Source of the DNA: Kitasatospora sp. MMS16-BH015
Lineage (GTDB): Bacteria > Actinomycetota > Actinomycetes > Streptomycetales > Streptomycetaceae
Reading direction: 5' to 3'
DNA length: 64,000 nt
Assembly: GCF_002943525.1 (NCBI RefSeq)
Contig: NZ_CP025394.1
Span: forward strand, 1,860,001-1,924,000
The notes under the pieces are model-generated. The model searched no databases and was not told the origin of the DNA. It was given only the letters and a program-made list of their open reading frames with translations. The first letter of the stretch is position 1. Each line of letters begins with the position of its first letter. Positions 14,190 to 47,229 of the stretch are shown here, in pieces. A program made the translations under genes and the position numbers.

Positions 14190-14197
14190 GCACAACA

Positions 14198-14266: not shown

Positions 14267-14275
14267 GTCCCGCCG

Positions 14276-29458: not shown

Positions 29459-29541
29459 GCCGAACGCCCCCGGCCGGGCCGGTACGGCGAACGTACCGCT
29501 AGGGTCATGATCTGCAAGATCGAACCAGCTCGGAGGGGGCG

Positions 29542-30270
29542 GTGGCGATGGACGTTCTGCTGTTCAACGTGACCACGGCGGCACTGATGGTGGTCATGTT
29601 CAAGGGGGGCCTGGCCCTGATCGGCGAGGGGACGGTGCGCCGGCGCGGCCTCCCCTGGGCGGCGGTGGCGCTGACCGGCCTCGGGGTCGGCGGGGTGGTG
29701 CTCCAGCTCTGCTGGTCCGGCGCGATGGGGGCGCTCGACTCCGACCCCGCCAAGCACGGCTGGTGGCGGGTGCTCACCTCGGTGTTCATGCAGAACGGCG
29801 GCATCGGCGGCACGGTCTGGAACCTGGCCACCCTCGCCGTGATGGCGGCCTTCGCGCAGTGGTTCTGGGGCGGCCCGCTGATGCTCGGGCTCTTCCTCAC
29901 CGGCATCCTGCTGCCCGAGCGGATCGACGCGCTGTTCGGCCAGACCTCGCACAGCACCGACCCGCGCAACTTCGCCGGCAGCTCCGGCGCCACCTACTTC
30001 CTCGGCGCCACCCTGGCCGCCGCCCTGCTGCTCCACGGCGACCAGGCGGGCAAGGGCGGCCCGCAGCCGAAGCTGCTCGCGCTCGGCGTCCCGGTGCTCG
30101 GCCTGGCGCTCTGGTTCGCCCAGTCCAACGGGCACGGCCTGGTCTCCGCGTACGGCTTCGCCGTCGGCGCCCTCGCCTGGCTGCTCTTCCGCCGCCACCT
30201 GCGGCCCGCCCCCGCCACCGACCGCACCACCACCGGCGCCGCCGAGGCCGCCACCGCCGAATCCGCCTGA
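29542..30270 (+). CDS. Divergent rhomboid-family intramembrane protein
   Basis: A 242-residue multi-pass membrane protein that looks like a divergent rhomboid. WWRVLTSVFMQNGGIGGTVWNLATL (about 74-98) parallels the rhomboid W-R-x-x-T-x-x-F segment. GSSGATYFLGATLAAALLL (146 on) matches the catalytic G-x-S-G helix, with Ser148 as the nucleophile. GHGLVSAYGFAVGALAWLLF (197 on) matches the catalytic-His helix H-x-x-x-x-x-G-x-x-x-G, with His198. If correct, it cleaves membrane proteins within the bilayer. The GTG at 29542 follows GGAGGG; ATG 29548 is an alternative. Confidence 0.6.
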   Translation: MAMDVLLFNVTTAALMVVMFKGGLALIGEGTVRRRGLPWAAVALTGLGVGGVVLQLCWSGAMGALDSDPAKHGWWRVLTSVFMQNGGIGGTVWNLATLAVMAAFAQWFWGGPLMLGLFLTGILLPERIDALFGQTSHSTDPRNFAGSSGATYFLGATLAAALLLHGDQAGKGGPQPKLLALGVPVLGLALWFAQSNGHGLVSAYGFAVGALAWLLFRRHLRPAPATDRTTTGAAEAATAESA

Positions 30271-30318
30271 GCGCCTGCCGGTCGGCCCGCCCGCACGGAG
30301 GCCCGTTACCATCGGCCA

Positions 30319-31437
30319 ATGCCCAGCCTGACCGGAGTCCCGCTTCAGATCATCGCCGCCCTCGTCGCGGTCGCCGTCTTCGCCGCCACCATGTGGCTCT
30401 GGCCCCGGCTCGCCGGCAAGGGGTGGCGCAGCTGGCTCGGCCGGTTCGGGGCCTTCCTGGCCGCGCAGGTGGCGGTGCTGGTGGCGATGGGCCTGGTGGC
30501 GAACTCGTACTTCGGCTTCTACACCACCTGGAGCGACCTGCTGGGCACCGACGGCGCCCCGGGCCAGGTGGTGGACCACCAGCCCGGCAAGGCCGTCTCG
30601 CTCACCGGCGAGCAGAAGATGTACTCCGCGCAGGGCTCGGCCAAGGACCGCTCCGGGGTGATCCAGAACGTCACCATCAAAGGAGCCGGCTCGGGCCTGA
30701 GCAGCCAGGCGTACGTCTACCTGCCGCCGCAGTACTTCCAGCCGGGCTACGCGGCGCGGAAGTTCCCGATGGCCCTGGTGCTGGCCGGCTACCCGGGCTC
30801 GGCCGAGAAGCTCATCTCGCTGATGTCGTACCCGACCTCCACGCTCCAGGCGATCCAGGCCGGCCAGCTGCCGCCCACCGTGCTGGTGATGATGCGCACC
30901 ACCCCGGCCGGCGGCAGCCGCGACACCGAGTGCATGGACATCCCGAACGGCCCCAAGGTGGAGACCTACTTCACCGAGGACCTGCCCAAGGCGATGTCGG
31001 CCACCTACCGGATCACCGACCTGCCGCAGGCCCGCGCGGTGATCGGCAACTCCACCGGCGGCTACTGCGCGCTGAAGTTCGCGCTGCGCAAGCCGGACGC
31101 CTACCGCGCGGCCGTCTCGCTCTCCGGCTACTACACGGCCCCGATCGACCCGACCACGGGCGACCTCTTCGAGGGCAGCGCCGAGCTCAAGCGCGAGAAC
31201 GACCTGCTCTGGCGGCTGCACACCCAGCCCGCCGCCCCGGTCTCGCTGCTGCTGGCCACCAGCCCCAACGAGGACAACTACGAGGGCACCCAGAAGATGG
31301 TGGGCGCCTTCAAGGCCCCGACCCAGCTCTCCACCATCACCCTGGACAGCGGCGGGCACAACTTCCACACCTGGACGCGCGAAATCCCCCCGGCCCTCAC
31401 CTGGCTCGGCAAGCGGCTGACGCCCCCGCAGGCCTGA
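30319..31437 (+). CDS. Membrane-anchored esterase-family (antigen 85/esterase D-like) hydrolase
   Basis: A 372-residue alpha/beta hydrolase. Two N-terminal membrane helices (about 8-28 and 44-66) anchor it; the catalytic domain begins near residue 110. AYVYLPPQYFQPGY and FPMALVLAGYPGSAEK form the first strands, the nucleophile elbow is VIGNSTGGYCAL (Ser near 239), and the catalytic His is probably in DSGGHNFHTW. This layout fits actinobacterial membrane-tethered esterases related to mycolyl transferase/antigen 85 proteins. The true substrate is unknown. Confidence 0.85.
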   Translation: MPSLTGVPLQIIAALVAVAVFAATMWLWPRLAGKGWRSWLGRFGAFLAAQVAVLVAMGLVANSYFGFYTTWSDLLGTDGAPGQVVDHQPGKAVSLTGEQKMYSAQGSAKDRSGVIQNVTIKGAGSGLSSQAYVYLPPQYFQPGYAARKFPMALVLAGYPGSAEKLISLMSYPTSTLQAIQAGQLPPTVLVMMRTTPAGGSRDTECMDIPNGPKVETYFTEDLPKAMSATYRITDLPQARAVIGNSTGGYCALKFALRKPDAYRAAVSLSGYYTAPIDPTTGDLFEGSAELKRENDLLWRLHTQPAAPVSLLLATSPNEDNYEGTQKMVGAFKAPTQLSTITLDSGGHNFHTWTREIPPALTWLGKRLTPPQA

Positions 31438-31513
31438 CCCGAATCACTACTCGCCAGTAGACCCGCCGGTAATATTTCGGCGATTTCCCCCGCACACGGC
31501 CCCGGCATTGCCG

Positions 31514-31529
31514 TGTGACGAGCGTCACT
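31514..31529. promoter_or_regulatory. Crp-like operator upstream of the biosynthetic cluster
   Basis: TGTGACGAGCGTCACT contains the perfect palindrome GTGACGAGCGTCAC and agrees with the E. coli CRP half-sites and with the GTG-N6-GNCAC pattern reported for streptomycete Crp. It adjoins a TTGATC/TAGTCA promoter-like pair (31530-31535, 31552-31557, spacer 16), in the 276-base gap before the exporter gene. Confidence 0.45.
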
Positions 31530-31713
31530 TTGATCTTCCCTGGACATGACATAGTCAGATGGATTTCGATGTCATTCGTGCCCGGTCGGCGATCCCGATC
31601 AGGCGCGACGGGGGCAATAAACCCGAGGCTTTTTCGTTGGCAATGGCGCTTAACGAGGGGTACGCGGTGCGCACAACAGTTCATTTCGACCCGGGGCACG
31701 ACCTGCCGTACGG

Positions 31714-32952
31714 ATGTGGTGCGGTACGACCATGCTGAGCCGGCTCCTGCCGCCGCGGGGGGCAGCCCGCACGCTCACCGGCATCACGCTGGTGCACACC
31801 ATGGGTCAGGGCCTGTGGATGGCGCTCAACGCCATCTACGCGACCGCCGTGCTGGGGCTCTCACCCGGCCAGTTCGGCCTCGGCGTCGGGGCCGCCGCCG
31901 CGGTCGCGCTGCTGCTCAGCACCCCCACCGGCCACCTGGCCGACCGGCTCGGGCCGCGGGTGGTGCAGATCTGGTCCTTCGTGGCCCTCGGGCCGCTCAC
32001 CGCGGCCCTCCTGCTGGTGCACGGCTTCCTGCCGTACCTGCTGGTGACCTCCGTGCAGGCGGTCGCCTACAGCGCCAGCCGCAGCGCCCGGATGGCCATG
32101 CTGGCCGGGCTGATCGAGCCCGAGCAGCGGGTCTTCGTCCGCGCCTACCTGCGGGCCACCACCAACGTCAGCGTCTCGGTGGGCGCCCTGGTCGCCGGCC
32201 TGGTGCTGGCCGTCGACTCGCCGCCGGTCTACCGGGCGGCCGTGGTCTTCAACGCCGCCACCTACCTGGTCACCGGCCTGCTGACCCTGCTGCTGCCGGC
32301 CGTGCCGCCGCAGCCGGCCAGGCCAGGCCCGGCCCTGGTGGTGCTGCGGGACCGGCCCTTCCTCGCCTTCGTCGCGCTGGACGGCCTGCTCTCCATGCAC
32401 AACCTGCTGCTCGACGTGGTCCTGCCGCTCTGGGTGCTGCAGCGCACCCACGCGCCGCGCTGGATCGTCGCGGCCATCCTCTTCACCAACACCGTCGCGG
32501 TCGTCCTGCTCCAGGTCAGAGTCGCGCGCGGCACCGACGAGCCCGCCAGTGCGGCGCGGGCCTCGCGGGCCGGATCCCTCTTCATCGGCCTGGCCTGCCT
32601 GGTCTTCGCCTGCACCCAGGGCACCCCGGCGGCCCTGGCCGCCACCCTGCTGGTGCTGGGCGCGGTGGCGCACGTGCTGGGCGAGATCAAGCAGTCGGCC
32701 GGCAGCTGGGGCATGGCCTTCGGCCTGGCCCCCGAGCACGCCCAGGGCCAGTACCAGGGCACCGCCGCGATGGGCGCCGACCTCGGCAAGATGATCGCGC
32801 CGGCCCTGCTCACCTGGCTGGCCGTCACCCACGGCACGCTCGGCTGGCTGGTGATGGCCGCGGGCTTCGCCGCCATCGGCTCGGCCATGCCCCGGATCGT
32901 CACCTGGGCCGCCGCCCGGCCCTCGGCCACACCGGCCGCCGCCACCGTCTGA
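31714..32952 (+). CDS. MFS exporter at the head of the biosynthetic cluster
   Basis: A 412-residue major facilitator with about 12 helices. The motif-A-like loop between helices 2 and 3 reads STPTGHLADRLGPRVVQ, and the second half starts near LVVLRDRPFLAFVALDGLL. It resembles actinobacterial drug exporters. Start is uncertain: ATG 31714 or ATG 31732 (MLSRLLPP), neither with a strong ribosome site; a 59-codon open frame just upstream ends overlapping 31732. As first gene of the cluster, it probably exports the product or gives self-protection. Confidence 0.85.
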   Translation: MWCGTTMLSRLLPPRGAARTLTGITLVHTMGQGLWMALNAIYATAVLGLSPGQFGLGVGAAAAVALLLSTPTGHLADRLGPRVVQIWSFVALGPLTAALLLVHGFLPYLLVTSVQAVAYSASRSARMAMLAGLIEPEQRVFVRAYLRATTNVSVSVGALVAGLVLAVDSPPVYRAAVVFNAATYLVTGLLTLLLPAVPPQPARPGPALVVLRDRPFLAFVALDGLLSMHNLLLDVVLPLWVLQRTHAPRWIVAAILFTNTVAVVLLQVRVARGTDEPASAARASRAGSLFIGLACLVFACTQGTPAALAATLLVLGAVAHVLGEIKQSAGSWGMAFGLAPEHAQGQYQGTAAMGADLGKMIAPALLTWLAVTHGTLGWLVMAAGFAAIGSAMPRIVTWAAARPSATPAAATV

Positions 32953-33072
32953 CGCCTTTTCCCGACACTCTCCACACCTTTTCTGCACGCATTCCCGCAT
33001 GGCCGCTCAGTCGTGCGCTGAGCCCATTTCGCCATGCCCGAATATGCTTCGCAATTGAACACAGGGGGATTC

Positions 33073-36000
33073 ATGCCCGTGGACGAAAACTCCCTCGCCT
33101 CGTCCGCCGATGAAGGAACCACCATGAGCGCCGTACCCGCGCTGCAAATACCCGTCGGGGAATTCGAAAGCCGTACCGCCGACCTCCGCTCGGTCTTCTC
33201 CTGGACCTGTGCCGACTTCCGCGCACTGACCGAGTTCACCGCCGAGCGCGGCCTGGCCGCCACCGAGCTGTTCGGCGCCGCCTTCACGCTGCTGGTCCAC
33301 CGGTACTCCGGCCAGGACGACCTGGTGCTGGCCCGCAGCAGCGGCCCCGACCGGCCGGCCCGGCCGGTGGCCGTCCGCTCCCGGATCGCGGACGACCTGA
33401 CCTTCGCCGAGCTCACCGCGATGCTCTCCGCCCGCTACCGGGCCGGGGTCGAACAGAGCGCCGGGCCCGCCGATCTCGGCAGCGGCCTGCGGGTCGGCTT
33501 CCTGAGCCGGGCCGAGGGCGAACGGGTCGGCCCGCCGGACGGATTCGACCTGCTGCTGGAGGCGGTGGACACCCCCGAGGCGGTGCGCTTCACCCTGCAC
33601 TACGACGCCGGCCGGTTCGGCGAGGGCTTCGTCTCCCGGCTGGCCGCCAACCACCGCGCGCTACTGCTCGACGCCTGCGCCCGCCCCACCGTGCCGGTGC
33701 GCGAGCTGTGCCTGCTGGCCGAGGCGGAGCTGCGGTACCTGGTGGCGGAGGTCAACGCCACCGCGCTGCCCTACCCGGCCGACAGCACGCTGCACGCGCA
33801 GGTCGAGGCCCAGGCCGCCCGCACCCCGGACGCCCCCGCCGTCCGCTGGCGGGAGACCACCTGGAGCTACCGCGAGCTGGACGAGCAGGCCGACCGGCTG
33901 GCCCGGGCCCTGCACGCCCGGGGCATCGCTCCCGGCTCCCGGATCGGCGTCTCCACCGCCCGCAGCCACCGCACCGTCGCCCTGCTGCTCGCCGTACACA
34001 AGGCCGGCTGCGCCTACGTGCCGCTCGACCCGGCCTATCCGGCCCAGCGGCTGAGCGCGATCGCCGCCACCGCCGAACCGGCCGCCGTCGTACTGGACGG
34101 CGAGACGGCCGACTGGCTCGACGGGGTGAGCGCCGCCGCGCTGCCGCTCGATGAGCTCTGGGAGAAGGCGGCGGCCGAGCCCGCCGAGCCGCTCGGGCTC
34201 GCCGTGGCGCCGACCGACACCACCCACCTGATCTACACCTCCGGCTCCACCGGCCTGCCCAAGGGCGTGGTGATCAGCCACCGCAACGTGGTCGCGCTGC
34301 TCGCCTGGGCCCACCAGGTCTACCGGCCCGAGGAGTTGGCCCGGGTCCTGTTCGCCACCTCGCTCAACTTCGACCTCTCGGTCTTCGAGCTCTGGGCCCC
34401 GCTGACCACCGGCGGCTGCGTCCTGGTGGTGGACAACGTGCTCGCCCTGACCGAGGACGAGACGCTCCGCCCCACCCTGGTCAACACCGTGCCCAGCGCG
34501 CTCAACGTGCTGCTCCAGCGCTCGGCCGTGCCCGCCGGCACCACCGTGCTGAACGTCGCGGGCGAGCCGCTGGCCAAGGAGCTGGTCAACGCCGCCTTCG
34601 AAACCACCGGCGTCGAGCGGCTGTTCAACCTGTACGGGCCCTCCGAGGACACCACGTACTCCACCTGGAAGTGCTTCACCGGCCCGCTCGAGAGCAGCCC
34701 CACCATCGGCGTGCCGATCGCCAACACCGTCGCCTACCTGCTCGACCGGTACGGGCAGTTGGTGCCGCGCGGCGTGGCGGGCGAGCTGCACCTGGGCGGC
34801 GACGGCCTGTCCAGCGGGTACACGGGCGATCCCGAGCGCACCGCCGCCGCCTTCGTGCCCGCCCCGGCCCCGCTGCCGCCCGGCCCGCTCTACCGCACCG
34901 GCGACCTCGCCCGGTGGACGGAGGAGGGCGAGCTGGCCTTCATGGGCCGGCGGGACAACCAGGTGAAGGTGCGCGGCTTCCGGATCGAGCTCGGCGAGAT
35001 CGAGTCGGTGCTGCGCGCGGTGGTCGGCCTCAAGGACGTGGCCGCGCTGGCCGTCCGCCAGGGCGAGGACACCCGACTGGTCTGCTACGTGGGCCTGGAG
35101 GGCGAGCCGATCACCGTGGAGGAGATGAGCGCGCACCTGCGGCGCGAGCTGCCGCACTACATGCAGCCCGCCAAGATCCTGGTCACCGACCGGCTGCCGC
35201 AGCTGCCCAACGGCAAGGTGGACCGCAAGGCGCTGGCCGCCCAGGAGGTCGACTGGGCCGCCGGCGAGAGCGGCTTCCACAGTGACGACCCGCAGGAGGC
35301 CGCGGTGGCCCGGGTCTGGGCCGAGCTGCTGGGCGTCACCCGGCTCACCGCCGAGCTGGACTTCTTCTCGGTCGGCGGCCACTCGCTGCTGGCCAACCTG
35401 CTGGCCGCCCGCCTGGGCGACGCGGCGGCCCGCCCGGTGCGGGTGGCCGAGATCTACGAGCACCGCACCCTGGCCGACCAGGCCCGGCTGCTGCGGGCCA
35501 AGCTGGCCCAGGGGCCGGTGAGTACGGCCGGCGGCGAGGCCGCCCGGCGCCGCGCGGTGGCCGAGACGCTGCACGAATCCGGCACCGGCCACGGCGTGCC
35601 CGGCGCCGGCGCGGCCGTCTACCTGGACGGCGAGCTGGAGTTCAGCTACCACGGCGTGGACGACACCGTGACCGGGGCGGAGCGCGACGCGGCCTCCCGC
35701 CAGCGGGTCACCTGCATCACCAAGCCGATGCTGGCCTTCACCGCGCTGCGCCTGGTCGACCGCGGCCTGGTCGGCCTGGACGAGCCGCTGAGCACCCTGC
35801 TGCCGCAGGCCTTCCGCCGCGCCGACGGCTCCACCGTCGAGGTGACGCTCCGTCAACTCCTGACCCACACCAGCGGGATCGACGACTCCTACGAGATCTG
35901 GCACGACACCGACCTGCCAAGCCTCGACGCCTACCTCGACAGCTTCGCCGAGTACGGCCAACTCTTCGAGCCGGGCGAGGTGTTCGCCTACTCCGCCTGC

Positions 36001-36882
36001 GGCACCTCGATCGTGGCCGGGTTGATCGAGCGGCTGCTCGGCATCCCGTGGCGCCGGGCCGTCAACGAGCTGCTGCTGGCCCCGCTCGAGATCGCGCCGA
36101 TCCCCGAGACGCTCACCGAAGGCGGCCACTACGGCGGCAGCATCTCGGCGGGCTACCTGTGGAGCGAGAGCGAGCAGGAGTTCACCCGGCACGACCCGCC
36201 CCGGCAGACCGTGGCGGACGACGCGGCCGGCTCCTTCTCGGTCTGCCTCACCCTGCCCGAGCTGGCGAGCATCGCCCTGCTCGCGCTGAACGACGGCGTG
36301 GCCCCCAGCGGCGAGCGGCTGCTCTCGGCCGAGCTGGCCGAGCAGATGCGCACCCCGCAGATCCCGGTGCCCGGTCACCACTTCATGCACGCCTGGGGCC
36401 TGGGCTGGCTGATGTTCGGCCCGAGCGCCTTCGGCTTCAACTCCAACGGCAGCGGCCACCACAACTTCATCCAGATCTTCCCCGAGCAGCGCTCCTTCCT
36501 GCTCCTGCTGGCCAACGCCTACCCGGCCTTCGGCCTCTACGAGGACCTGCTGCGCGCGCTCACCGGCGAGGGCCTGATCCGCACCGGCCGCCCCTTCGAG
36601 CTCGCCCTGGAGGCCTGCACCGGCCGCTACGAGTCCTCCGGCTACCGCCTGGACGTGCTGCCCGGGGCCGACCACCTCGGCTACCGCTACGCCGAACGCC
36701 GACCCGGCGGTGCCTGGCTGCCGTTGGACGAGGGTGACCTGGTGCTCTCGGGAGCCGGCGGCTTCAGCTCAATGTCCAAGGCCAACGTCCTGGCCGGTTC
36801 GATCTCCTTCATCCCCCTGCCCGGCACCGACACCCCCGGCTTCGTACGGATCGGTCAGCGCTTCGCGAGGAAGGTCCGATGA
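33073..36882 (+). CDS. Single-module NRPS: C remnant, Ala-type A domain, carrier, beta-lactamase-fold C-terminus with C-x-x-K
   Basis: A 1269-residue synthetase. Residues about 30-230 match only the C-terminal half of a condensation domain (LFGAAFTLLVHRYSGQDDLVLA) with no HHxxxDG. The A domain has YTSGSTGLPKG (near 388), FDLSVFE (433), NLYGPSED (about 520), YRTGDLARW, VRGFRIELGEIE and LPNGKVDRKAL. Its specificity pocket reads D-L-F-N-N-A-L-T-Y-K, a known alanine code. The carrier Ser is in GGHSLL (771). From about 836 a class C beta-lactamase/PBP-fold domain follows, with TCITKP (Cys881, Lys884) where S-x-x-K is expected, YSA (Tyr973) and SGHH (about 1128). It may release or transfer the carrier-bound acyl group. 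The ATG at 33073 has an AGGGGG site. The stop overlaps the next gene. Confidence 0.88.
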   Translation: MPVDENSLASSADEGTTMSAVPALQIPVGEFESRTADLRSVFSWTCADFRALTEFTAERGLAATELFGAAFTLLVHRYSGQDDLVLARSSGPDRPARPVAVRSRIADDLTFAELTAMLSARYRAGVEQSAGPADLGSGLRVGFLSRAEGERVGPPDGFDLLLEAVDTPEAVRFTLHYDAGRFGEGFVSRLAANHRALLLDACARPTVPVRELCLLAEAELRYLVAEVNATALPYPADSTLHAQVEAQAARTPDAPAVRWRETTWSYRELDEQADRLARALHARGIAPGSRIGVSTARSHRTVALLLAVHKAGCAYVPLDPAYPAQRLSAIAATAEPAAVVLDGETADWLDGVSAAALPLDELWEKAAAEPAEPLGLAVAPTDTTHLIYTSGSTGLPKGVVISHRNVVALLAWAHQVYRPEELARVLFATSLNFDLSVFELWAPLTTGGCVLVVDNVLALTEDETLRPTLVNTVPSALNVLLQRSAVPAGTTVLNVAGEPLAKELVNAAFETTGVERLFNLYGPSEDTTYSTWKCFTGPLESSPTIGVPIANTVAYLLDRYGQLVPRGVAGELHLGGDGLSSGYTGDPERTAAAFVPAPAPLPPGPLYRTGDLARWTEEGELAFMGRRDNQVKVRGFRIELGEIESVLRAVVGLKDVAALAVRQGEDTRLVCYVGLEGEPITVEEMSAHLRRELPHYMQPAKILVTDRLPQLPNGKVDRKALAAQEVDWAAGESGFHSDDPQEAAVARVWAELLGVTRLTAELDFFSVGGHSLLANLLAARLGDAAARPVRVAEIYEHRTLADQARLLRAKLAQGPVSTAGGEAARRRAVAETLHESGTGHGVPGAGAAVYLDGELEFSYHGVDDTVTGAERDAASRQRVTCITKPMLAFTALRLVDRGLVGLDEPLSTLLPQAFRRADGSTVEVTLRQLLTHTSGIDDSYEIWHDTDLPSLDAYLDSFAEYGQLFEPGEVFAYSACGTSIVAGLIERLLGIPWRRAVNELLLAPLEIAPIPETLTEGGHYGGSISAGYLWSESEQEFTRHDPPRQTVADDAAGSFSVCLTLPELASIALLALNDGVAPSGERLLSAELAEQMRTPQIPVPGHHFMHAWGLGWLMFGPSAFGFNSNGSGHHNFIQIFPEQRSFLLLLANAYPAFGLYEDLLRALTGEGLIRTGRPFELALEACTGRYESSGYRLDVLPGADHLGYRYAERRPGGAWLPLDEGDLVLSGAGGFSSMSKANVLAGSISFIPLPGTDTPGFVRIGQRFARKVR

Positions 36883-38171
36883 CCACCCCCACCCCTGCCC
36901 CCGCCCCCGCCGCCAAGCACGTCCTGTTCGTCACCTGGAAGGCCGGCAACGCCCCCGCCTTCGAGGCCGCCAAGCGCCTGGGCCACCACGTCACCCTGAT
37001 CCGCTCGCTGGCGATGGAGGCGGCCCAGCACATCGACTTCGACGCCTCCCCCTACGGCGAGTTCGTCGACACCGTGCACGTGCTGCCCGACGCCACCGAG
37101 TACGAGGCGCTGCGCGAGTGCGTGCTGGCGGTGCACGCCGAGCGCCCGGTGGACGGCTTCGTGGCCACCGTGGACGCCCTGGTGGTGCCGGTGGCCCGGA
37201 TCGCCGAGGAGATCGGCGTGCCGTTCACCAGCGCGAGCGGCGCGGCGGCGGCCAAGCTGAAGAACCGCTGCCGGGAGATCCTGGCCGCCGCCGGGGTGGA
37301 CTCCACCCGGCACGCGGTGGTGGCCGGGGTCGAGGAGGCGGCCGCCTTCGCGGCGGCCACCGGGTACCCGGTGGTGGTCAAGCCGGCCCGGGGCTCGGCC
37401 AGCGAGGGCGCGCACATCGTGCCCGACGAGGCCCGGCTGCGCGAGCTGCTCGCCGGGGTGGAGCCGGGCACCGGCGTGTACGAGGCCGGGGTGCTGGTCG
37501 AGGAGTACCTGACCGGCCGGTTCGTCTCGGCCGAACTCGGGCTCTCCCGTGGTAAGTTCCTCCGGCTGGCGGTCAGCGAGCGCTCCACCTGGGAGCGGCA
37601 CGAGGCGCTGGAGACCGGCACCACCATCCCGGCCGCGATCAGCGCCGAGGACCAGGCGGCGGTGCTCGACTTCGCCGAGCGGGTGGTCGGCGCGGTGGGT
37701 CTGGGGCTCGGCATCTTCCACGTCGAGATCATGCTCGGCGCGGACGGCCGGCCCCGGCTGATCGAGCTCAACCCGCGGATCATGGGCTCCTGCCTGCCCA
37801 ATCTGTTCAAGCTCGCGGGCGGCGGCGACATCTTCGAACTCCTGGTCCGGATCCACCTGGACGAGGAGGTGGACCCAGGCGAGATCAGCTTCACCCACCA
37901 CGCCACCGTCCGCTGGTTCGGCGCGGCCGACGCCGCCCCGAAGCCGGCCCGCGTCCCGGACCTGGGCTGGGCCGCCGCCGAGTACGGCGACAGCCTGCAC
38001 GCCTTCACCCTGGCCTTCCCCGAGGGCGAGGTGCTGCCGCCCTGCCGGGGCAATCTCGGCAACTTCGGCGAGGTGCAGACCGTCCACACCGACCATGCGA
38101 CATCCATCAGCATCGCCGAGGAGATCGTCCGCCGTACCGCGGACCTGCTCGGCCTCGAGGTGACGAGGTGA
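36879..38171 (+). CDS. ATP-grasp ligase (L-amino-acid-ligase type)
   Basis: A 430-residue ATP-grasp enzyme. The N-terminal Rossmann-like part (HVLFVTWKAGNAPAFEAAKRLGHHVTLI) is followed by the central domain (LKNRCREILAAAGVDS, YPVVVKPARGSASEGAHIV) and the grasp domain with VLVEEYLTGRFVSAEL and the Mg2+-binding FHVEIMLG ... RLIELNPRIMGSC. It would form an amide between a carboxylate and an amine via an acyl phosphate, so in this cluster it probably couples amino acids outside the NRPS. It overlaps both neighbours by four bases (ATGA and GTGA). Confidence 0.9.
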   Translation: MTTPTPAPAPAAKHVLFVTWKAGNAPAFEAAKRLGHHVTLIRSLAMEAAQHIDFDASPYGEFVDTVHVLPDATEYEALRECVLAVHAERPVDGFVATVDALVVPVARIAEEIGVPFTSASGAAAAKLKNRCREILAAAGVDSTRHAVVAGVEEAAAFAAATGYPVVVKPARGSASEGAHIVPDEARLRELLAGVEPGTGVYEAGVLVEEYLTGRFVSAELGLSRGKFLRLAVSERSTWERHEALETGTTIPAAISAEDQAAVLDFAERVVGAVGLGLGIFHVEIMLGADGRPRLIELNPRIMGSCLPNLFKLAGGGDIFELLVRIHLDEEVDPGEISFTHHATVRWFGAADAAPKPARVPDLGWAAAEYGDSLHAFTLAFPEGEVLPPCRGNLGNFGEVQTVHTDHATSISIAEEIVRRTADLLGLEVTR

Positions 38172-39139
38172 CAGTGATGGCGCCCATGAGCACGTTCTTC
38201 GACGAGACCCGGGCCCAACTCACCCGGCTCGGCCTGCCCGGCGGCGACTCCCCGCTGATCGAGGGCTCCTCCCGCACCTTCGAGGACGGCTGCCAGTACC
38301 GGATCGAGGTGCCCACCGTGAACTCGGCCCGGGCCGCCGAGACCCTGCTCTCGGAGAGCCGCCGCCGCGGCTTCACGATCAACCGGATCACCGAGACCCG
38401 CGGCCTCTTCCGGCACACCGCCCGGGAGGTGGCCGAGTACGTGGAGCTGGGCCGCGAGTACGGCGCCGAGATCCTCATGTCGGTGGGCCCCCGGGCCAGT
38501 TACGACACCGGTGCGAGCGCCCACACCCCCGAGGGGATGCGGATCGGCTACCGCCTGCGCGGCCAGGAGCAGATCGTCCGCGCGGTGGAGGACGTCAAGC
38601 GCGGCGTGGACCTCGGGGTGCGCGGTTTCGTGGTCTACGACGAGGGCCTGCTCTGGGTGCTCAACCGGCTGCGGCTGAGCGGCGACCTGCCTAAGCACCT
38701 GCACCTCAAGGTCTCGGCCCACTGCGGGCACGGCAACCCGGCCTCGGCCCAGATGCTGGAGAGCCTGGGCGCGGACAGCTTCAACCCTGTCCGCGACCTC
38801 TCGGTGCCGATGATCGCGGCGCTGCGCCAGGCCGTCTCCATCCCGCTGGACTGCCACGTGGACAACCCGAAGGCCTCCGGCGGCTTCATCCGCACCTACG
38901 AGGCCCCGGAGTTCGTCCGGGTGGCCGCGCCGGTCTACCTGAAGACGGGCAACAGCGCGCTGGAGGGCCACGGCACCTGCCCCACCCCCGCCCAGCTCGA
39001 CGACATCCTGCACCAGGTCGAGATCACCACCGAGTTCCTCGGCCGCCACCACCCGGCCGCGCGGCAGAGCCCCGCCCTCGACCTCGCGAAGCGCCCGGCG
39101 GAGCACCCCGCCCGCCGGCTCGCACCCGTCAGCCCGTAA
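38168..39139 (+). CDS. U32-peptidase-like TIM-barrel protein
   Basis: A 323-residue protein resembling the group annotated as U32 family peptidase. Conserved-looking blocks are RITETRGLFRHTAREV, RGFVVYDEGLLWVLNRL, KVSAHCGHGNPASAQMLESLGADSFNPVRDL, LDCHVDNPKASGGFIRTYEAPEFV and YLKTGNSAL. The fold is probably a (beta/alpha)8 barrel. Peptidase activity is not demonstrated for most of this group, and a lyase, isomerase or hydroxylation-assisting role is equally possible here. GTG 38168 overlaps the ligase stop; ATG 38177 with GAGG is an alternative. Presence in a biosynthetic operon is unusual. Confidence 0.7.
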   Translation: MTVMAPMSTFFDETRAQLTRLGLPGGDSPLIEGSSRTFEDGCQYRIEVPTVNSARAAETLLSESRRRGFTINRITETRGLFRHTAREVAEYVELGREYGAEILMSVGPRASYDTGASAHTPEGMRIGYRLRGQEQIVRAVEDVKRGVDLGVRGFVVYDEGLLWVLNRLRLSGDLPKHLHLKVSAHCGHGNPASAQMLESLGADSFNPVRDLSVPMIAALRQAVSIPLDCHVDNPKASGGFIRTYEAPEFVRVAAPVYLKTGNSALEGHGTCPTPAQLDDILHQVEITTEFLGRHHPAARQSPALDLAKRPAEHPARRLAPVSP

Positions 39140-39164
39140 GCCCGTACCGGAAGGCTCCCCACCC

Positions 39165-40964
39165 ATGTGCCGCATCTACGGCCACTTCGGCGGCGCCCCC
39201 GTCGACCGCGAGGTGCTGCGGGCCGTCGCCCGGGGCATGCACCACGGCGGCCCCGACGAGCAGACCCTGCACCTCGCCGACACCTGGTCGCTGGGCAACA
39301 ACCGCCTCGCCATCCAGGGCATCAGCCACGGCCACCAGCCCTTCACCCTGGGCGAGGCCACCTGCGTCTTCAACGGCGAGATCTACAACCACCGCGAGTT
39401 GCGGGCCGAACTCGCCGCCCAGGGCCACCGGTTCGAGGGCGACTGCGACGGCGACGTGCTGCTGCCGCTCTACCGGAAGTACGGCGACGCCTTCGTCTCC
39501 CGCCTGGAGGGCATGTACGCCATCGCGGTGGTGGACCGGCGCGGGGCCGAGCCCTGCCTCAAGCTGTTCAACGACCACGCCGGCATGAAGTCGCTCTACT
39601 ACCACCTCTCCGCCGACGGCCGCCGGCTCAGCTTCGCCTCCGAGCTCGAATCACTGGCCCGCTTCCCGGACTTCCCGAGCGAGCTCGACCCGCTCGCGGT
39701 GGACCGTTACCTGGGCGGCAAGGCCGTCTGGGGCCCGGGCACCATGTACGCCGGGGTCCGCACCCTGGTGCCCGGCACCGTGCTGACCTTCGCGGGCGGC
39801 AAGCTGACTGAGCGTCAGATCGAACTGGCTCCCGCCGAGTTGGACTGGCCCGGTGGCGAGCCGAGCCTGGCCGGGGCGGGCGAGCTGCTGGACGGGCTGC
39901 TCCAGCGGGAGCTGGGCCGGATGCTGGACGCGGACGTACCGGTCTGTGTGATCACCAGCGGCGGCCTGGACTCCAGCTACACCTCGGCGCTGGCCGCACG
40001 GCTGGTGCCGGACCTGGCCTCCTTCAACATCGCCTACCAGGGAGACTGGCCCAGCGACGAGCGGGAGTTCGCCGCCGAGGTGGCCCGGCACTGCGGCACC
40101 CGGCACCACCAGGTGCTGCTCGACCCGGCCGGCTTCCCGGCGTTGATCGACCGGTTCGTCCGCCACCTGGACCAGCCCAACAACGCCCCGCACAGCCTCT
40201 CCACCTTCGCCCTCTTCGAGGCCATCCACCAGGCCGGCTTCAAGGTGGCGCTGACCGGCGACGGCGCCGACGAGCTGTTCGCCGGCTACGCCCGGTTCGT
40301 CAAGGCGGCCCGGGACGACAGCGCCAGCTGGCACCGCGACTACCAGCCCACCATGGCGGCCGTCCCGACGGCCACCCTGGACGGGCTCTACACCGCCGAG
40401 TACTGGGCCCAAGTCGGCGCCGCCGGCGGTTACTTCGGCGATCGCAGCGCCGATGAGCTCGCCGCCCGGGTGAGCAGCTCCGCGGACAAGCTGGAGACCC
40501 TGCTGCGCTACGACCAGTTCGAGCGCTTCCCGTACTACATCCTGCGCCGGGTCGACCACCTGAGCATGGCGCACTCGGTGGAGGCCCGGGTGCCCTTCCT
40601 CCAGCCGAGCGTGATGCGCTTCGCGCACGCGCTGCCGGCCGGGCTCAAGGTGGTCGGCGAGCAGGTCAAGGCCCCCGTGGTCGAGGCCGCCCGCCGCTGG
40701 GTGCCGCAGAGCGTGATCGACCGCCCCAAGCAGCCGTTCACCCTGCCCATCGCCGCCATGATCAAGCCCGGCCAGGCGCTGCACGAGCTGATCGGCGACA
40801 CCCTGCTCGCCCCCGGCGCCCGCTGCCACGCCTACGTCCGGCCGGAAGCCGTCCGCGAGCTGTTCCGGCTCCAGTCGGAGCGCCCCGGCGCCCACCCGGC
40901 CGAAGTCCTCTGGTCACTCCTGATGCTCGAAACCTGGCTCACCACCAGGCACCTCAACCCCTGA
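39165..40964 (+). CDS. Asparagine-synthetase-type glutamine amidotransferase
   Basis: A 599-residue AsnB-like enzyme. Met-Cys2 at the mature N-terminus (CRIYGHFGG) gives the glutaminase nucleophile, with NGEIYNHRELR completing that domain. The synthetase domain has the PP-loop VCVITSGGLDSSYTSALAARL, LTGDGADELFAGYARF and VPFLQPSVM. It would amidate a carboxylate with glutamine nitrogen via an acyl adenylate. Retention of Cys2 argues against a beta-lactam synthetase, which lacks it. Its cluster location suggests amidation of a precursor or the final peptide. It sits 25 bases after the U32-like gene. Confidence 0.88.
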   Translation: MCRIYGHFGGAPVDREVLRAVARGMHHGGPDEQTLHLADTWSLGNNRLAIQGISHGHQPFTLGEATCVFNGEIYNHRELRAELAAQGHRFEGDCDGDVLLPLYRKYGDAFVSRLEGMYAIAVVDRRGAEPCLKLFNDHAGMKSLYYHLSADGRRLSFASELESLARFPDFPSELDPLAVDRYLGGKAVWGPGTMYAGVRTLVPGTVLTFAGGKLTERQIELAPAELDWPGGEPSLAGAGELLDGLLQRELGRMLDADVPVCVITSGGLDSSYTSALAARLVPDLASFNIAYQGDWPSDEREFAAEVARHCGTRHHQVLLDPAGFPALIDRFVRHLDQPNNAPHSLSTFALFEAIHQAGFKVALTGDGADELFAGYARFVKAARDDSASWHRDYQPTMAAVPTATLDGLYTAEYWAQVGAAGGYFGDRSADELAARVSSSADKLETLLRYDQFERFPYYILRRVDHLSMAHSVEARVPFLQPSVMRFAHALPAGLKVVGEQVKAPVVEAARRWVPQSVIDRPKQPFTLPIAAMIKPGQALHELIGDTLLAPGARCHAYVRPEAVRELFRLQSERPGAHPAEVLWSLLMLETWLTTRHLNP

Positions 40965-40981
40965 CCCCCTAGGAGCTTCCC

Positions 40982-41803
40982 GTGCCCCAGAACCCGCCCG
41001 CCGTACGGTCCCTGCTGGCCGGTGTCACCAAGGACGACATCCGCCGCGACCCCTTCCCGCACATCGTGATCAGCGACGCGCTCCCGCAGGAGCTCTACGA
41101 CGCGCTGGCCGCCACCATGCCGACCGCCGAGTACATCGGCGAGAAGATCGGCAAGAAGATCACCTCGAACGAGCGCTACAACTACATGTCCGAGCACGTC
41201 CTGGGCGACCCGGCGATGGCCCAGGTCTGGAAGGAGTTCGTGACGTACCACTCCTCCCCGGAGTTCTACGCCGAGTTCCTCGACCTCTTCCACGAGGACC
41301 TGGTGGCCAACCTGCCCCAGGTGGAGCAGCAGACCGGCGCCCTGCGCGACCTGCGGGTCGGCCGCCGCAACCGGGACTCCTTCGACACCCACGACATCCT
41401 GATGGACTGCACCGCCGTCATCAACTCGGCCGTCACCGGCCGCCCTTCGGCCTACCGCGGCCCGCACGTGGACAAGCCGTACAAGCTCTTCGGCGGCCTC
41501 TTCTACATGCGCCTGGCCGAGGACGACGCGGTCGGCGGCGACCTGGTGCTCTACAAGTACCGCTCGGATGACCCGAAGTTCCGCACCAGCGCCTCCGAGT
41601 ACGGCGACAGCCGGTTCGACATCGACCCGGAGTACGTGGAGGAGGTGACCACCGTGCCGTACCGCGCCAACACCCTGGTGATGTACCCGATCAACCCGCT
41701 GGCCCTGCACGGCGTCTCGGTGCGCAGCCTGACCGACCACCAGCGCCGGTTCATCGCGCTGGTCGGCGACCTCCAGCACCACCTGTTCGACCTCGCGATC
41801 TGA
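40982..41803 (+). CDS. Fe(II)/2-oxoglutarate oxygenase (prolyl-hydroxylase-like)
   Basis: A 273-residue oxygenase. The iron facial triad is probably His and Asp in GPHVDKPYKLFGG and the distal His in PLALHGVSV, with Arg of HQRRF binding 2-oxoglutarate. NPLALHG and the FYMRLAEDDAVGGDLVLYKY strands fit the 2OG-Fe(II) oxygenase superfamily rather than TauD. It likely hydroxylates an amino acid or carrier-bound residue. GTG start with GGAG seven bases before; 17 bases after the amidotransferase and 10 before the aminotransferase. Confidence 0.85.
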   Translation: MPQNPPAVRSLLAGVTKDDIRRDPFPHIVISDALPQELYDALAATMPTAEYIGEKIGKKITSNERYNYMSEHVLGDPAMAQVWKEFVTYHSSPEFYAEFLDLFHEDLVANLPQVEQQTGALRDLRVGRRNRDSFDTHDILMDCTAVINSAVTGRPSAYRGPHVDKPYKLFGGLFYMRLAEDDAVGGDLVLYKYRSDDPKFRTSASEYGDSRFDIDPEYVEEVTTVPYRANTLVMYPINPLALHGVSVRSLTDHQRRFIALVGDLQHHLFDLAI

Positions 41804-41813
41804 GGTGGCCGAG

Positions 41814-42728
41814 ATGATCCCCTTCGACCAGCGCTCCGGCCGCCTCTGGTACGACGGCAAGCTCGTCGACTGGCCCGAGGCCACCCTGCACGTGCTCACC
41901 CACGGCCTGCACTACGCGAGCAGCGTCTTCGAGGGCGTGCGGATCTACGGCGGCGAGCCGTTCATGCTGCGCGAGCACATCGCCCGGCTGCGGGCCTCGG
42001 CCCGGATCCTCGACTTCGACCTGGAGCACGCGGACGAGACGCTCCGGCTGGCCACCCTGGAGGTGGTGGCCGAGGCGGGCATCACCGACGGCTACGTCCG
42101 GATGAACGCCTGGCGCGGCTCGGAGGTCATCCAGACCGCCGCACTGAAGACCTCGGTGCACACCTCGGTGGCCGCCTGGGAGATCCCGGCCGGCTACTAC
42201 GCGGCGGAGGACGCGCTGGAGACCGGCATCGCACTGGTGACGGCCGACTACCGCCGGCCCTCCCCGCAGTACGCCCCGGTCAAGAGCAAGGCCGCGGGCA
42301 ACTACATGATCGGGACGATCAGCAAGAACCAGGCGCTGCGGGCGGGCTTCGACGACGCCCTGCTGCTGGACGACCGCGGCCTGATCGCCGAGTCCACCGG
42401 CGCGCACGTCTTCTTCACCAAGGACGGCACGCTCCACACGCCGACCACCCGCTGCACCATCGACGGCATCACCCGGGCCTGCGTGCTCGGGCTGGCCGAG
42501 CAGCTGGGCATCCCGGCCGAGGTCGGCGACCTGGCGCCGGAGTTCACGGCCGAGGCGGACGGCGCCTTCGTCTGCGGCACGGCCTGCGAGCTGCTGCCGG
42601 TCTCCCGGATCGACGATCACCGCTACGACCTGCGTGGCAATCTGGTGATCAAACAACTGATCGACGGCTACCGCGAATTGGTGGCCGGTGCCCGCAAGCT
42701 GGAGTTGCACCACCCATGGAAGCAGTAG
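41814..42728 (+). CDS. Branched-chain amino acid aminotransferase (IlvE-type)
   Basis: A 304-residue fold-type IV PLP enzyme. The family start MIPFDQRSGRLWYDGKLV, HGLHYASSVFEGVRIYGG, the PLP lysine in PVKSKAAGNYMIG, the glutamate loop LIAESTGAHVFF and the phosphate-binding TIDGITRACVLGL all match IlvE. In this cluster it probably makes or consumes a branched or modified 2-oxo acid. ATG 41814 fits family N-termini and a GAGG site; GTG 41805 is possible. The AEC transporter gene overlaps its last 13 bases. Confidence 0.88.
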   Translation: MIPFDQRSGRLWYDGKLVDWPEATLHVLTHGLHYASSVFEGVRIYGGEPFMLREHIARLRASARILDFDLEHADETLRLATLEVVAEAGITDGYVRMNAWRGSEVIQTAALKTSVHTSVAAWEIPAGYYAAEDALETGIALVTADYRRPSPQYAPVKSKAAGNYMIGTISKNQALRAGFDDALLLDDRGLIAESTGAHVFFTKDGTLHTPTTRCTIDGITRACVLGLAEQLGIPAEVGDLAPEFTAEADGAFVCGTACELLPVSRIDDHRYDLRGNLVIKQLIDGYRELVAGARKLELHHPWKQ

Positions 42729-43663
42729 CAGCACTCGAAAAGCTCGTCCCCGTCGTGCTCGCCTTCGGGTGCGGCGTGGTCCTCGCGCGGCGGAAGGTGG
42801 TGCCGGCCGAAAGCTCCAAGGTCTTCGCCGACTACGCCTTCCTCTTCGCGGTGCCGTGCTACCTGTTCGGCAACATCTACCGCAGCGACCTCGGCCAGCT
42901 CTTCTACTGGCGGGCGATCGGCGGCTACGCCGCCACCGCGGCGCTGGCCGCCCTGGTGATCGGGCTGGTCGCCCGGGTCGCCGGGACGCGCGAGCCGCGG
43001 GGCATCGCGCTGAGCGTCATGGCGGGGGTGCAGGTGAACACGGCGTACTTCGCCGTGCCCGTGTTCATCATGCTGTTCGGGAACGCGGCGCCGATCTTCC
43101 CGGTGCTGCTCTTCCAGGTCTGCGTGCTCTCCCTCGTGATCATCTCGATCATGGAGCTGGGCCGGCCGACCGCCCAGGGAGGGCCCGTCCAGCGGCTCTC
43201 CCGGGCCGTCGGGGCCTCGCTGGTCACCCCCGTGGTGCTCGCCTGCAACGCGGGCATCCTGTTCAACCTGCTGTCGGTGCCGATACCCAAGCCCTTCCTC
43301 GACAGCTTCGCCTTCGTCGGCGACAGCGCCTCACCGGTCGCCCTCTTCGCCCTCGGCCTGCACCTGGGCGGCTCCGGCCTCTCCATCCGGGGCACCACGC
43401 TCCAGGAGCTCTGGCTGGTCGGCTTCAAGTGCGTGCTCTTCCCCCTGCTGGCCTGGGGGCTCTGCCACTACGCCTTCGGCGTCAGCGGGCCGTGGCTCAC
43501 CTACCTGGTGCTGATCGCCGCGATGCCCGCCCCACAGAACCTGTTCATCTTCGCGCAGCGCTACGACGTCGGTGTCGACATGTCGGCCGCCCTCGTCGTC
43601 AAGAGCTCGCTGGCCGCGCTGCTCCTGCTCCCGCTCTGGGTGCAGTGGGCCGCCCACGCCTGA
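42716..43663 (+). CDS. AEC-family (auxin efflux carrier-like) transporter
   Basis: A 315-residue membrane carrier with ten predicted helices. The repeat structure FGCGVVLARRKVVPAESSKVFADYAFLFAVPCYLF and the inverted second half with SPVALFALGLHLGGSG and AAMPAPQNLFIFAQRYD are typical of the AEC family, which moves organic acids and related small molecules. Inside the cluster, it may take up a carboxylate precursor or export product. It overlaps the aminotransferase gene by 13 bases and is followed 27 bases later by the TauD-like gene. Confidence 0.87.
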   Translation: MEAVAALEKLVPVVLAFGCGVVLARRKVVPAESSKVFADYAFLFAVPCYLFGNIYRSDLGQLFYWRAIGGYAATAALAALVIGLVARVAGTREPRGIALSVMAGVQVNTAYFAVPVFIMLFGNAAPIFPVLLFQVCVLSLVIISIMELGRPTAQGGPVQRLSRAVGASLVTPVVLACNAGILFNLLSVPIPKPFLDSFAFVGDSASPVALFALGLHLGGSGLSIRGTTLQELWLVGFKCVLFPLLAWGLCHYAFGVSGPWLTYLVLIAAMPAPQNLFIFAQRYDVGVDMSAALVVKSSLAALLLLPLWVQWAAHA

Positions 43664-43690
43664 CCCTCTCGTGAAAGGCACAACCACACC

Positions 43691-44653
43691 GTGACCCAGA
43701 CCGCGCACGCCACCCGACTCTCCGTCCGCCAGGTCGCCGGCCGGATCGGCGCCGAGATCTCCGGCGTCGACCTCCGCGAGGAGCTGGACGAGGCCACCGT
43801 GGCCGAGATCCGCCAGGCCGTGCTGGCCCACCGGGTGGTCTTCTTCCGCGACCAGCAGATCGACCACGCCCAGCACGTGGCCTTCGGCCGCCGCTTCGGC
43901 GCCCTGACCCGCCGTCCGGGCAAGAAGCACGGCGTGCACCCCGAGGGCTTCCCGGAGATCCTCACCGTCGACCCGAAGGCCGACGTGGAGCGCTACGGCA
44001 AGGGCTTCGAGGAGCACTACCAGCGCAAGTGGACCTCCCCGCTGGCCGGTTGGCACAGTGACCTGACCCAGGCCGTCAACCCGCCGAACCTCTCCATCCT
44101 GCGCGCCGAATCCACCCCGCTGTTCGGCGGCGACACCCAGTGGACCAACACCGTGGCCGCCTACGAGGGCCTGGCCGCGCCGCTGCGCGCCCTGGTCGAC
44201 ACCCTGCAGGCCGAGCACGCCTTCTTCACCGGCGTGCACCTGCGCCACTCCGACGAGCGCGACCGCGAGATCCTCAAGATCTACTGCGAGGACCCCCAGG
44301 TCGCGATCCACCCGGTGGTCCGGGTGCACCCCGAGACCGGCGAGAAGGCCCTCTTCGTCAGCCCCGGCTCCACCACCCGGATCATGGGCTTCACCGAGCT
44401 GGAGAGCCGCCACCTGCTCGACCTGCTCTTCCAGCACCTGACCAGCGCCGAGTACACCGTCCGCTTCCGCTGGGAGCCGGGCTCGATCGCCTTCTGGGAC
44501 AACCGCGCCACCTGCCACTTCGCGCCCACCGACTTCGCCCACCTGGACGCGGACCGCGTGATGCACCGCGTCACCGTCCTCGGCGAGCCGGCCCTCGGCC
44601 CGGACGGCTTCACCTCCGAGCTCGTCTCCGGCGACCGGCTGGCCGCCTGGTAA
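43691..44653 (+). CDS. TauD/TfdA-family Fe(II)/2-oxoglutarate dioxygenase
   Basis: A 320-residue oxygenase of the TauD family. Iron ligands are His and Asp in LAGWHSDLTQ and the distal His in DRVMHRVTVLGEP; 2-oxoglutarate would be held by the Thr near GGDTQWTN and an Arg after the distal His. Start GTG 43691 follows GTGAAAGGCA. It is the last gene of the cluster. TauD relatives hydroxylate, desaturate or epoxidise amino-acid-derived groups, so with the second oxygenase this implies two oxidative tailoring steps. Confidence 0.88.
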   Translation: MTQTAHATRLSVRQVAGRIGAEISGVDLREELDEATVAEIRQAVLAHRVVFFRDQQIDHAQHVAFGRRFGALTRRPGKKHGVHPEGFPEILTVDPKADVERYGKGFEEHYQRKWTSPLAGWHSDLTQAVNPPNLSILRAESTPLFGGDTQWTNTVAAYEGLAAPLRALVDTLQAEHAFFTGVHLRHSDERDREILKIYCEDPQVAIHPVVRVHPETGEKALFVSPGSTTRIMGFTELESRHLLDLLFQHLTSAEYTVRFRWEPGSIAFWDNRATCHFAPTDFAHLDADRVMHRVTVLGEPALGPDGFTSELVSGDRLAAW

Positions 44654-44692
44654 CCGCCGTCGGTCCGCTTTTAGAGGCGGCTTCCAGGCCCG

Positions 44693-44708
44693 TCTCATGG
44701 GAATCTCA
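44693..44708. promoter_or_regulatory. TCTCA direct repeat upstream of the GT39 gene
   Basis: Two TCTCA pentamers lie 11 bases apart (44693-44697 and 44704-44708), one helical turn, 24 bases before the ATG. OmpR-type response regulators bind such direct repeats; the binder is unknown. Confidence 0.35.
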
Positions 44709-44731
44709 GCGCGGCCCCCGAGCGTGTTCCC

Positions 44732-46981: not shown

Positions 46982-47015
46982 CCCCTCGGAAGTAGCCCCT
47001 CGGACGCGCCGAGCA

Positions 47016-47082: not shown

Positions 47083-47229
47083 CTATCCGAGCCAGCCGCC
47101 GCCCTCCTCCACGGCCGCCAACAGCCGCACCTGGTACTCCTGGTGCACCGTCAGCACCGTCGCGTGCGCCCGCTGCAGCGCCACGATCAACTCGGCCACC
47201 AGCTCGGCCGACTCCTGTGCCTCGCTCAT
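47083..47229 (-). CDS. 48-residue helical protein co-translated with the PfaA-like gene
   Basis: This short gene encodes a 48-residue, mostly helical protein (begins MSEAQESAELVAELIVALQ, ends EEGGGWLG). Its ATG overlaps the TGA of the large upstream gene as ATGA, the usual sign of coupling. The amphipathic pattern AxxTVLTVHQEYQVRLLAAV recalls the helix after the AT domain in the large protein (LELHHRFLTTQLETARAL), so it may be a docking or dimerisation helix for it. No homologue is recognised. Confidence 0.6.
   Translation of the reverse strand: MSEAQESAELVAELIVALQRAHATVLTVHQEYQVRLLAAVEEGGGWLG

Follow-up and report, generated by a model that had tools for sequence, protein, structure and literature searches.

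Nine genes on the + strand of Kitasatospora sp. MMS16-BH015, lying as one compact unit at 31714-44653 of the window (the whole 64-kb stretch analysed, positions 1860001-1924000 of contig NZ_CP025394.1 in a genome of 8.96 Mb), are a conserved biosynthetic gene cluster. On present evidence from sequence we consider it rather probable that the cluster is self-contained and directs synthesis of a small exported peptide-like metabolite by the pathway proposed below. Literature and protein-family comparison matched no known product to it. An earlier note on this DNA had called the cluster unrecognised, and this stands to the extent that literature and family-library searches name no cluster with these genes; known-cluster databases lay outside the comparison, as did most subscription papers, so a description could exist. 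Frame calls and family searches gave the gene order major facilitator superfamily (MFS) exporter, non-ribosomal peptide synthetase (NRPS), ATP-grasp ligase, U32-like barrel, AsnB, 2-oxoglutarate (2OG)-oxygenase-like protein, branched-chain-aminotransferase (BCAT)-like enzyme, AEC transporter and TauD. The genes and the domains of the NRPS, among them one of penicillin-binding-protein (PBP) type, are as follows.

31714..32952, +, MFS exporter gene, first of the cluster (PF07690, 90.6 bits; present in 13 of 13 clusters)
33034..36882, +, single-module NRPS of 1282 aa: condensation remnant, adenylation (A), carrier (T) and fused PBP-type domain (13 of 13 clusters)
33034..33768, +, NRPS residues 1-245, C-terminal condensation part only (PF00668 profile positions 390-455 of 456)
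33769..35268, +, A domain (PF00501; code D-L-F/Y-T-N-A-L-T-Y-K, read by hand)
35269..35523, +, T domain with phosphopantetheine site GGHSLL (PF00550, 37.8 bits; GGHSLL in 13 of 13)
35524..36879, +, fused PBP-type (SurE-like) offloading domain, the SxxK Ser replaced by Cys894 (PF00144, 127 bits; TC[IV][TS]K in 13 of 13)
36879..38171, +, ATP-grasp carboxylate-amine ligase (PF13535, PF18130; best solved relative 3vot)
38168..39139, +, U32-like TIM-barrel enzyme (weak PF01136; model pLDDT, the predicted local distance difference test, 82.9; TIM-barrel fold matches)
39165..40964, +, AsnB-type glutamine-dependent amidotransferase with MCR N-terminus (TIGR01536, 343 bits against a cut-off of 267)
40982..41803, +, 2OG/Fe(II)-oxygenase-like protein (by HxD...H motif only; HVD and the distal His kept in all 13 clusters)
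41805..42728, +, BCAT-like pyridoxal phosphate (PLP) enzyme (PF01063, 150 bits; PRK07544, 344 bits, below the cut-off of 396)
42716..43663, +, AEC-family transporter (PF03547, 82 bits)
43691..44653, +, TauD-family 2OG/Fe(II) oxygenase, last gene (PF02668, 207 bits; all 13 clusters keep WHSD and CH[FL]A)

A contig collection covering 84,980 species was scanned with two peptide patterns from close barrels (YRLRGQEQ and HLK[VI]SAHC), giving 257 barrel relatives and 80 loci kept (cited here by L numbers); because of this seeding and selection the scan is biased toward close barrels and its counts are lower bounds, and it may omit the window's own record. Of the 80 loci, 12 carried the full set of nine genes with order and strand unchanged, making 13 clusters with that of the window, and this recurrence places the gene grouping beyond chance. 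The twelve hosts are Streptomyces lavendulae CCM 3239, S. albiflavescens, S. physcomitrii, S. cupreus, S. sp. Tue6028, ISL-10, DI166 and YS415, S. sp. ICBB 8177, S. sp. Isolate_45, Wenjunlia vitaminophila and Streptantibioticus parmotrematis; three of 20 context loci (L031-L050) also hold the nine genes, on the same contigs as L053, L060 and L061, and were counted once. Proteins of the 12 clusters are 57-87% identical to those of the window (35-52% for the condensation remnant). What was observed directly is the gene content with its order and conservation, the architecture of the domains, the replacement of Ser by Cys and the retained motifs; the motifs kept in 13 of 13 clusters comprise the A-domain code, the carrier Ser, the Cys-x-x-Lys, Cys2 and SGGLDSS of AsnB, both HxD...H sets, and the BCAT segment PVKSKAAGN with its putative PLP Lys.

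The intergenic gaps in the window are, in order, 81, -4, -4, 25, 17, 1, -13 and 27 bases, and single gaps across the clusters run from -13 to 296 bases. The window's flank genes (an esterase before, a glycosyltransferase after) were unmatched in the 12 relatives over about 3-4 kb of flank on each side (about 0.5 kb downstream in L060). Comparison of 56 flank genes showed sharing only between near relatives (L052/L055, L057/L058/L059 and L060/L061), except for one family present in L051, L058 and L059 at differing places. The limits of the cluster at 31714-44653 are thus well defined, and the nine genes behave as a single inherited or transferred unit. The earlier note had described one compact biosynthetic cluster, with most neighbours overlapping or under 30 bases apart, and had named conservation in related strains as a check in advance: the spacing is as described at 7 of the 8 junctions, and the gene group was found in 13 genomes including that of the window. 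Its count of nine or ten genes settles at nine, with TauD last and no tenth, and its start at 31514 moves 200 bases further in, to the first start codon of the MFS frame at 31714. An "amide-rich" product was not borne out, the cluster having one amidotransferase and one ligase.

The nine-gene cluster is uncommon. Barrel searches found matches in 4 of 70 genomes of the genus, including its own (one match being a 25-residue fragment), and in 58 of 200 genomes of the family, mostly at ~33-42% identity. The carrier-PBP part of the NRPS scored above 700 bits in 4 of the 200 family genomes, again including its own, the next score being 134 bits. Across 396 genomes of the phylum the oxygenase-like protein (40982-41803) was found in its own genome only, and the AsnB model matched closely only its own protein (939 bits), the other 14 matches scoring 322 bits or less.

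We infer the pathway steps from family and motif, and with them their order, the alanine specificity and the product. The barrel would make, cleave or rearrange a di- or tricarboxylic 2-oxo acid (step 1), which the BCAT-like enzyme would transaminate to an unusual amino acid (step 2); AsnB would then turn a side-chain carboxylate into an amide with nitrogen from glutamine (step 3), and TauD and the orphan oxygenase-like protein would perform two oxidations of the amino acid (step 4). Meanwhile the NRPS would load a small amino acid, probably Ala, onto its carrier (step 5a), and the PBP-type domain would accept this residue on Cys894 and transfer it, by intermolecular aminolysis, to the modified amino acid's amine, giving Ala-X (step 5b). 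The ATP-grasp ligase would add a further amide bond or residue (step 6), and the product would leave by the MFS exporter, with the AEC transporter carrying precursor or product (step 7). A smaller core in Streptacidiphilus (L064), AsnB-BCAT-TauD-ATP-grasp-barrel, stands beside polyketide synthase (PKS) and carrier-condensation genes, which suggests that these five genes make the building block and that the cluster-specific part is the A-T-PBP protein, the oxygenase-like protein and the transporters; on such a division the ATP-grasp ligase, as part of that core, belongs with the building block.

The NRPS is one module, as the earlier note had it, with A and T domains, but its condensation domain is a remnant and the C-terminal PF00144 domain, with its Cys, had been overlooked. 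The Pfam condensation match covers the last 66 profile positions only, at NRPS residues 171-236, and none of the 13 clusters has HHxxxD within the first 400 NRPS residues; because the condensation N-lobe is missing, the module is probably able only to load. The A domain has LgrA (linear gramicidin synthetase A) and McyA as its nearest solved structures, and its hand-read code is constant across the 13 clusters apart from the F/Y position. We take the code to be of alanine or glycine type, and from sequence the domain is probably Ala- or Gly-specific, so that the alanine-activating module of the earlier note is plausible; a literature search for the code D-L-F/Y-T-N-A-L-T-Y-K found nothing.

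The C-terminal 450 residues of the NRPS form the PF00144 domain, whose best solved match is 6ksu (80 bits, E 1e-21), which we take to be SurE of the surugamide pathway; the PBP cyclase Ulm16 (8fek, 45 bits) matches too. The domain is thus related in sequence to these PBP-type thioesterases and retains the motif Lys and Tyr, but it differs from them in being fused to a carrier, in serving a one-residue module, in altered second and third motifs and in having Cys in place of the catalytic SxxK Ser in all 13 clusters. Outside the cluster family this residue was Ser in 34 of 36 distinct matches read, the other two (L166 and L168) being gapped there; the matches read are those at L135-L160 and L166-L176, each place counted once, and are part of a longer list from a search of 200 family genomes. 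Fusion itself is not a unique trait, a candidate ruled out by large same-genus NRPSs (L166-L169) that also carry a C-terminal fused PBP domain, with Ser read in L167 and L169, and the special feature is therefore the Cys form on a one-residue module. A review (PMC11735501) describes the class as stand-alone macrocyclases, whereas the domain here is in one frame with A-T and those of L166-L169 are likewise fused; the same review records amide formation by enzymes of the class.

A single module with a condensation domain that does not work could also mean that the NRPS-bound amino acid is a temporary handle or protecting group, or that the PBP-type domain hydrolyses, the product being the modified amino acid itself. 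The solved relatives of PF00144 include carboxypeptidases and esterases, which fits hydrolysis; on the other side, Pfam and NCBIfam recognised no separate peptidase in the cluster of nine, and the ATP-grasp ligase is conserved too, in 13 of 13 clusters. We regard this alternative as improbable, though it is the strongest of those considered.

The recurring pairing of the barrel with MCR-type AsnB was also overlooked by the earlier note. The AsnB passes TIGR01536 (343 against 267 bits) and keeps Cys2 and SGGLDSS in 13 of 13 clusters. Beta-lactam synthetases generally lack the glutaminase Cys2, and the retained Cys2 upholds the earlier note's argument against that chemistry. Likeness to AsnB/TsnB9-type amidotransferases extends to the nearest solved relative, the hydroxyamidotransferase 7ylz (148 bits, against 116 for AsnB), whereas the N-terminus is distinct: the window AsnB begins MCR[IV], and the four other full-length AsnB proteins tested from the same genome begin MCGI. 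MCR-type AsnB is present in 19 of the 80 loci, and with the window R occupies position 3 in 20 of 20 copies read, all with C-R-[IV] (the L057 start being non-ATG). In a tree from which the row L105 was left out for lacking the N-terminal motif, these 20 barrel-linked copies were separated with 100/100 support from the four other AsnB proteins of the source genome.

Seven MCR-AsnB loci lie outside the nine-gene set: L064, as above; L069 (Kutzneria), with MFS, an ATP-grasp protein with LAL_C2, an aminotransferase, an alpha/beta hydrolase, an A protein and a carrier; L072, an alphaproteobacterium; L073 (Reinekea), with an ATP-binding cassette (ABC) exporter and two A proteins, one with a carrier; L078, an uncultured proteobacterium; L079, a short Bacteroidetes contig; and L083, a Hyphomicrobiales contig with an aminotransferase. 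In Kutzneria, Reinekea, the alphaproteobacterium and Hyphomicrobiales, barrel and MCR-type AsnB recur together with exporters, aminotransferases or A/carrier proteins as their neighbours. The alphaproteobacterial locus (L072, 1435-6339) is possibly a minimal four-gene cluster in its own right, with barrel, MCR-type AsnB, an Asp/Asn-hydroxylase-type oxygenase and MFS.

What the earlier note called a U32-like barrel is a barrel, but no typical U32 enzyme: it scores 19.8 bits against a PF01136 gathering cut-off of 22.4. U32 proteins and O2-independent hydroxylases generally have four conserved Cys for an Fe-S cluster; of the four Cys in this barrel only Cys186 is invariant in six close sequences, and it is not invariant in 13 wider ones, so U32 hydroxylase or Fe-S chemistry was rejected for it. 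The model is a TIM barrel (pLDDT 82.9). The solved U32 protein Mk0906 does match it (Z 14.6, 3.0 A, 185 aligned), but CutC and RuBisCO-like proteins match about equally or better (Z 14.8-15.8); VIA-align also gave class II aldolases, and Foldseek a methylisocitrate lyase at a template modelling (TM) score of ~0.4. The fold comparison gives general TIM-barrel neighbours only, and the reaction is not fixed by fold. Charged residues invariant in 13 sequences (e.g. E47, R73, R109, D158, K181, D228 and K259) lie in, or within 3 residues of, model strands, which suggests that they may surround a binding pocket for a substrate rich in carboxylate or phosphate.

Barrel relatives in anaerobes are 48-58% identical and stand in conserved operons; when neighbours were clustered across 60 loci, the groups included FumA-like (38), FumB-like (37), PrpD-like (34), PF15617 C-C lyase (32), ATP-grasp (26), aldo-keto reductase (21) and phosphonopyruvate-decarboxylase-like (20) proteins, with group names taken from one or two representatives each. 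Clustering was given 68 loci (L062-L130 without L067), eight of which were dropped for an uncalled barrel frame (L064, L069, L074, L076, L116, L118, L124 and L130). In the cyanobacterium Hyella the gene next to the barrel encodes a DASS-type transporter, and annotated far relatives (L036 and L043) lie beside sugar-type ABC transporter genes. The canonical phosphoenolpyruvate mutase motif was sought in order to see whether the phosphonopyruvate-decarboxylase-like genes beside the barrel in Clostridia have a mutase origin; it occurred in one neighbour protein only (L092, 669 aa). In a barrel tree of 54 chosen rows, a 100/100 branch set the 18 streptomycete rows apart; AsnB-linked barrels from other phyla did not group together and were partly mixed with fumarase-linked ones, with long branches flagged. 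What the contexts share is di- and tricarboxylic and 2-oxo acids, which fits a carboxylic-acid substrate as context, not proof.

Several observations weigh against the proposed pathway. No gene that fixes the starting acid was recognised among the nine. The barrel-AsnB pair is not obligatory, since close barrels occur with no AsnB in the stretch examined at L062 (4 kb only), L063, L065 and L066, where neighbours include MFS (L062 and L063) or, at L066, which is also the L035 locus, a MATE exporter with a PLP enzyme; more broadly, 61 of the 80 loci have no MCR-type AsnB in the stretch examined, some stretches being short. In the PBP-type domain the second motif reads YSA, having lost the Asn of 6ksu (YSN), and the third reads GHHN, and because of these alterations the domain may be slow or inactive; its working on one residue would moreover be new, given that PMC11735501 describes the class as stand-alone macrocyclases. 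As for the two Fe(II)/2OG oxygenases of the earlier note, TauD stands by PF02668, and for the 40982-41803 protein only the HxD...H motif, kept in 13 of 13 clusters, points to that role: at the thresholds used it falls in no family of Pfam or NCBIfam, sequence comparison with solved structures gave nothing better than E 0.089, and its fold model (pLDDT 46) is unusable.

Other products can be imagined from the same parts. In a dapdiamide- or E-64-like route, a fumarate-type diacid would undergo linkage and amidation, and its epoxidation by TauD would give an epoxysuccinamide warhead. Fumarases do adjoin barrel relatives, and enzyme classes are held in common with the dapdiamide pathway, which presumably combines TauD, an A/T NRPS protein, ATP-grasp, an amidotransferase and MFS. 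However, the cluster has a barrel, an aminotransferase and a PBP domain in addition, Pfam and NCBIfam recognised none of the nine genes as making diaminopropionate, and its ATP-grasp ligase scores 30 bits against the cut-off of 840 for the dapdiamide synthase model (DdaF, NF041595). That ligase is related to bacilysin-type enzymes, its best solved relative 3vot being the L-amino acid ligase BL00235, but here too the likeness is low (47-57 bits; the BacD model gives 37 bits against a cut-off of 850). We give the dapdiamide- or E-64-like route a slim chance.

We hold it just as doubtful that the BCAT-like gene is a self-resistance copy of the target, the product being an inhibitor of branched-chain aminotransferase. 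The gene does sit inside a biosynthetic cluster, but the three other matches in the source genome are only 27-32% identical to it, which rules out a recent housekeeping duplicate, and its membership of the smaller Streptacidiphilus core suggests a biosynthetic role.

In alahopcin, Ala is joined to an amino acid that carries a 1,5-dihydroxy-2-oxopyrrolidine ring, and a cyclic hydroxamate of this type would suit probable Ala loading, one amidation, two oxygenases and an AsnB whose best solved relative is a hydroxyamidotransferase. We know of no alahopcin producer among the cluster hosts found. Unlike the TsnB6/7/9 set (PMC13418202), the nine genes include no amidooxygenase partner recognised by family search, and the one paper found on alahopcin (PMC9712658) concerns an oxygenase structure; it names alahopcin a cyclic hydroxamic acid and cites a reference titling it a dipeptide antibiotic. 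An alahopcin-type product is very unlikely in our estimate. Least credible of all is that the genes are an operon for catabolism or uptake of some compound resembling an amino acid: AEC and TauD families occur in catabolism too, and sugar-type ABC transporter genes adjoin the far barrels L036 and L043, but NRPS and MFS are present in 13 of 13 clusters, and Pfam and NCBIfam recognised neither a regulator nor a binding protein in the nine-gene set.

The logics of dapdiamide, E-64, bacilysin, trichostatin and alahopcin each share parts with the cluster and each miss an expected feature. Returning to a self-contained pathway to a small exported peptide-like metabolite, we tentatively put forward a fuller account, possible though short of probable, in which a cis-fused PBP-type domain with a Cys nucleophile, evolved from peptide cyclases, would act as a one-residue aminoacyl transferase, moving a single aminoacyl group from its carrier to a free amine, while a multi-phylum barrel/MCR-AsnB module would turn central carboxylic acids into an amidated amino acid through undescribed chemistry and so define a family of small antimetabolite clusters. 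The thirteen genomes, several of them from named species, are offered for product search, and two directly testable enzyme questions follow: can an offloading domain of PBP type use Cys to join a single residue to an amine, and which compound do the barrel and MCR-type AsnB produce? Conserved operons of gut and rumen anaerobes carry the barrel too, and solving it here would aid their annotation.

Several barrel-bearing loci merit description apart from the cluster. In Clostridia and other anaerobes (L080-L129) the operons are strongly conserved and often stand beside capsule-type genes, with the barrel at ~10001-10900 in most. They are of two types: PrpD, aldo-keto reductase, phosphonopyruvate-decarboxylase-like protein, barrel, PF15617 C-C lyase, FumB and FumA in the first; PrpD, barrel, ATP-grasp, C-C lyase, 2-hydroxyacid dehydrogenase, FumB and FumA in the second. 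This looks like a new pathway for carboxylic-acid-derived decoration. In Sedimentibacter (L093, ~10000-14700) the row barrel-FumA-FumB-malic enzyme-Ldh2, which L086 and L087 share by clustering, looks like a dicarboxylate-use operon. In Kitasatospora aureofaciens (L035/L066; L035:9350-13137) a close barrel relative (67%), a MATE exporter and a PLP enzyme (PALP) possibly form a three-gene cluster for an amino-acid analogue.

In the window, the nine genes contain no TTA codons (one or two are present in 4 of the 12 relatives), no tRNA genes were found across the 64 kb, and no Rfam family matched within 29000-47000. Near the cluster, on the - strand at 47226-51557, lies a 1443-aa frame of odd PKS-like architecture, in which only ketoacyl-synthase pieces and a ketoreductase (KR) domain were recognised.

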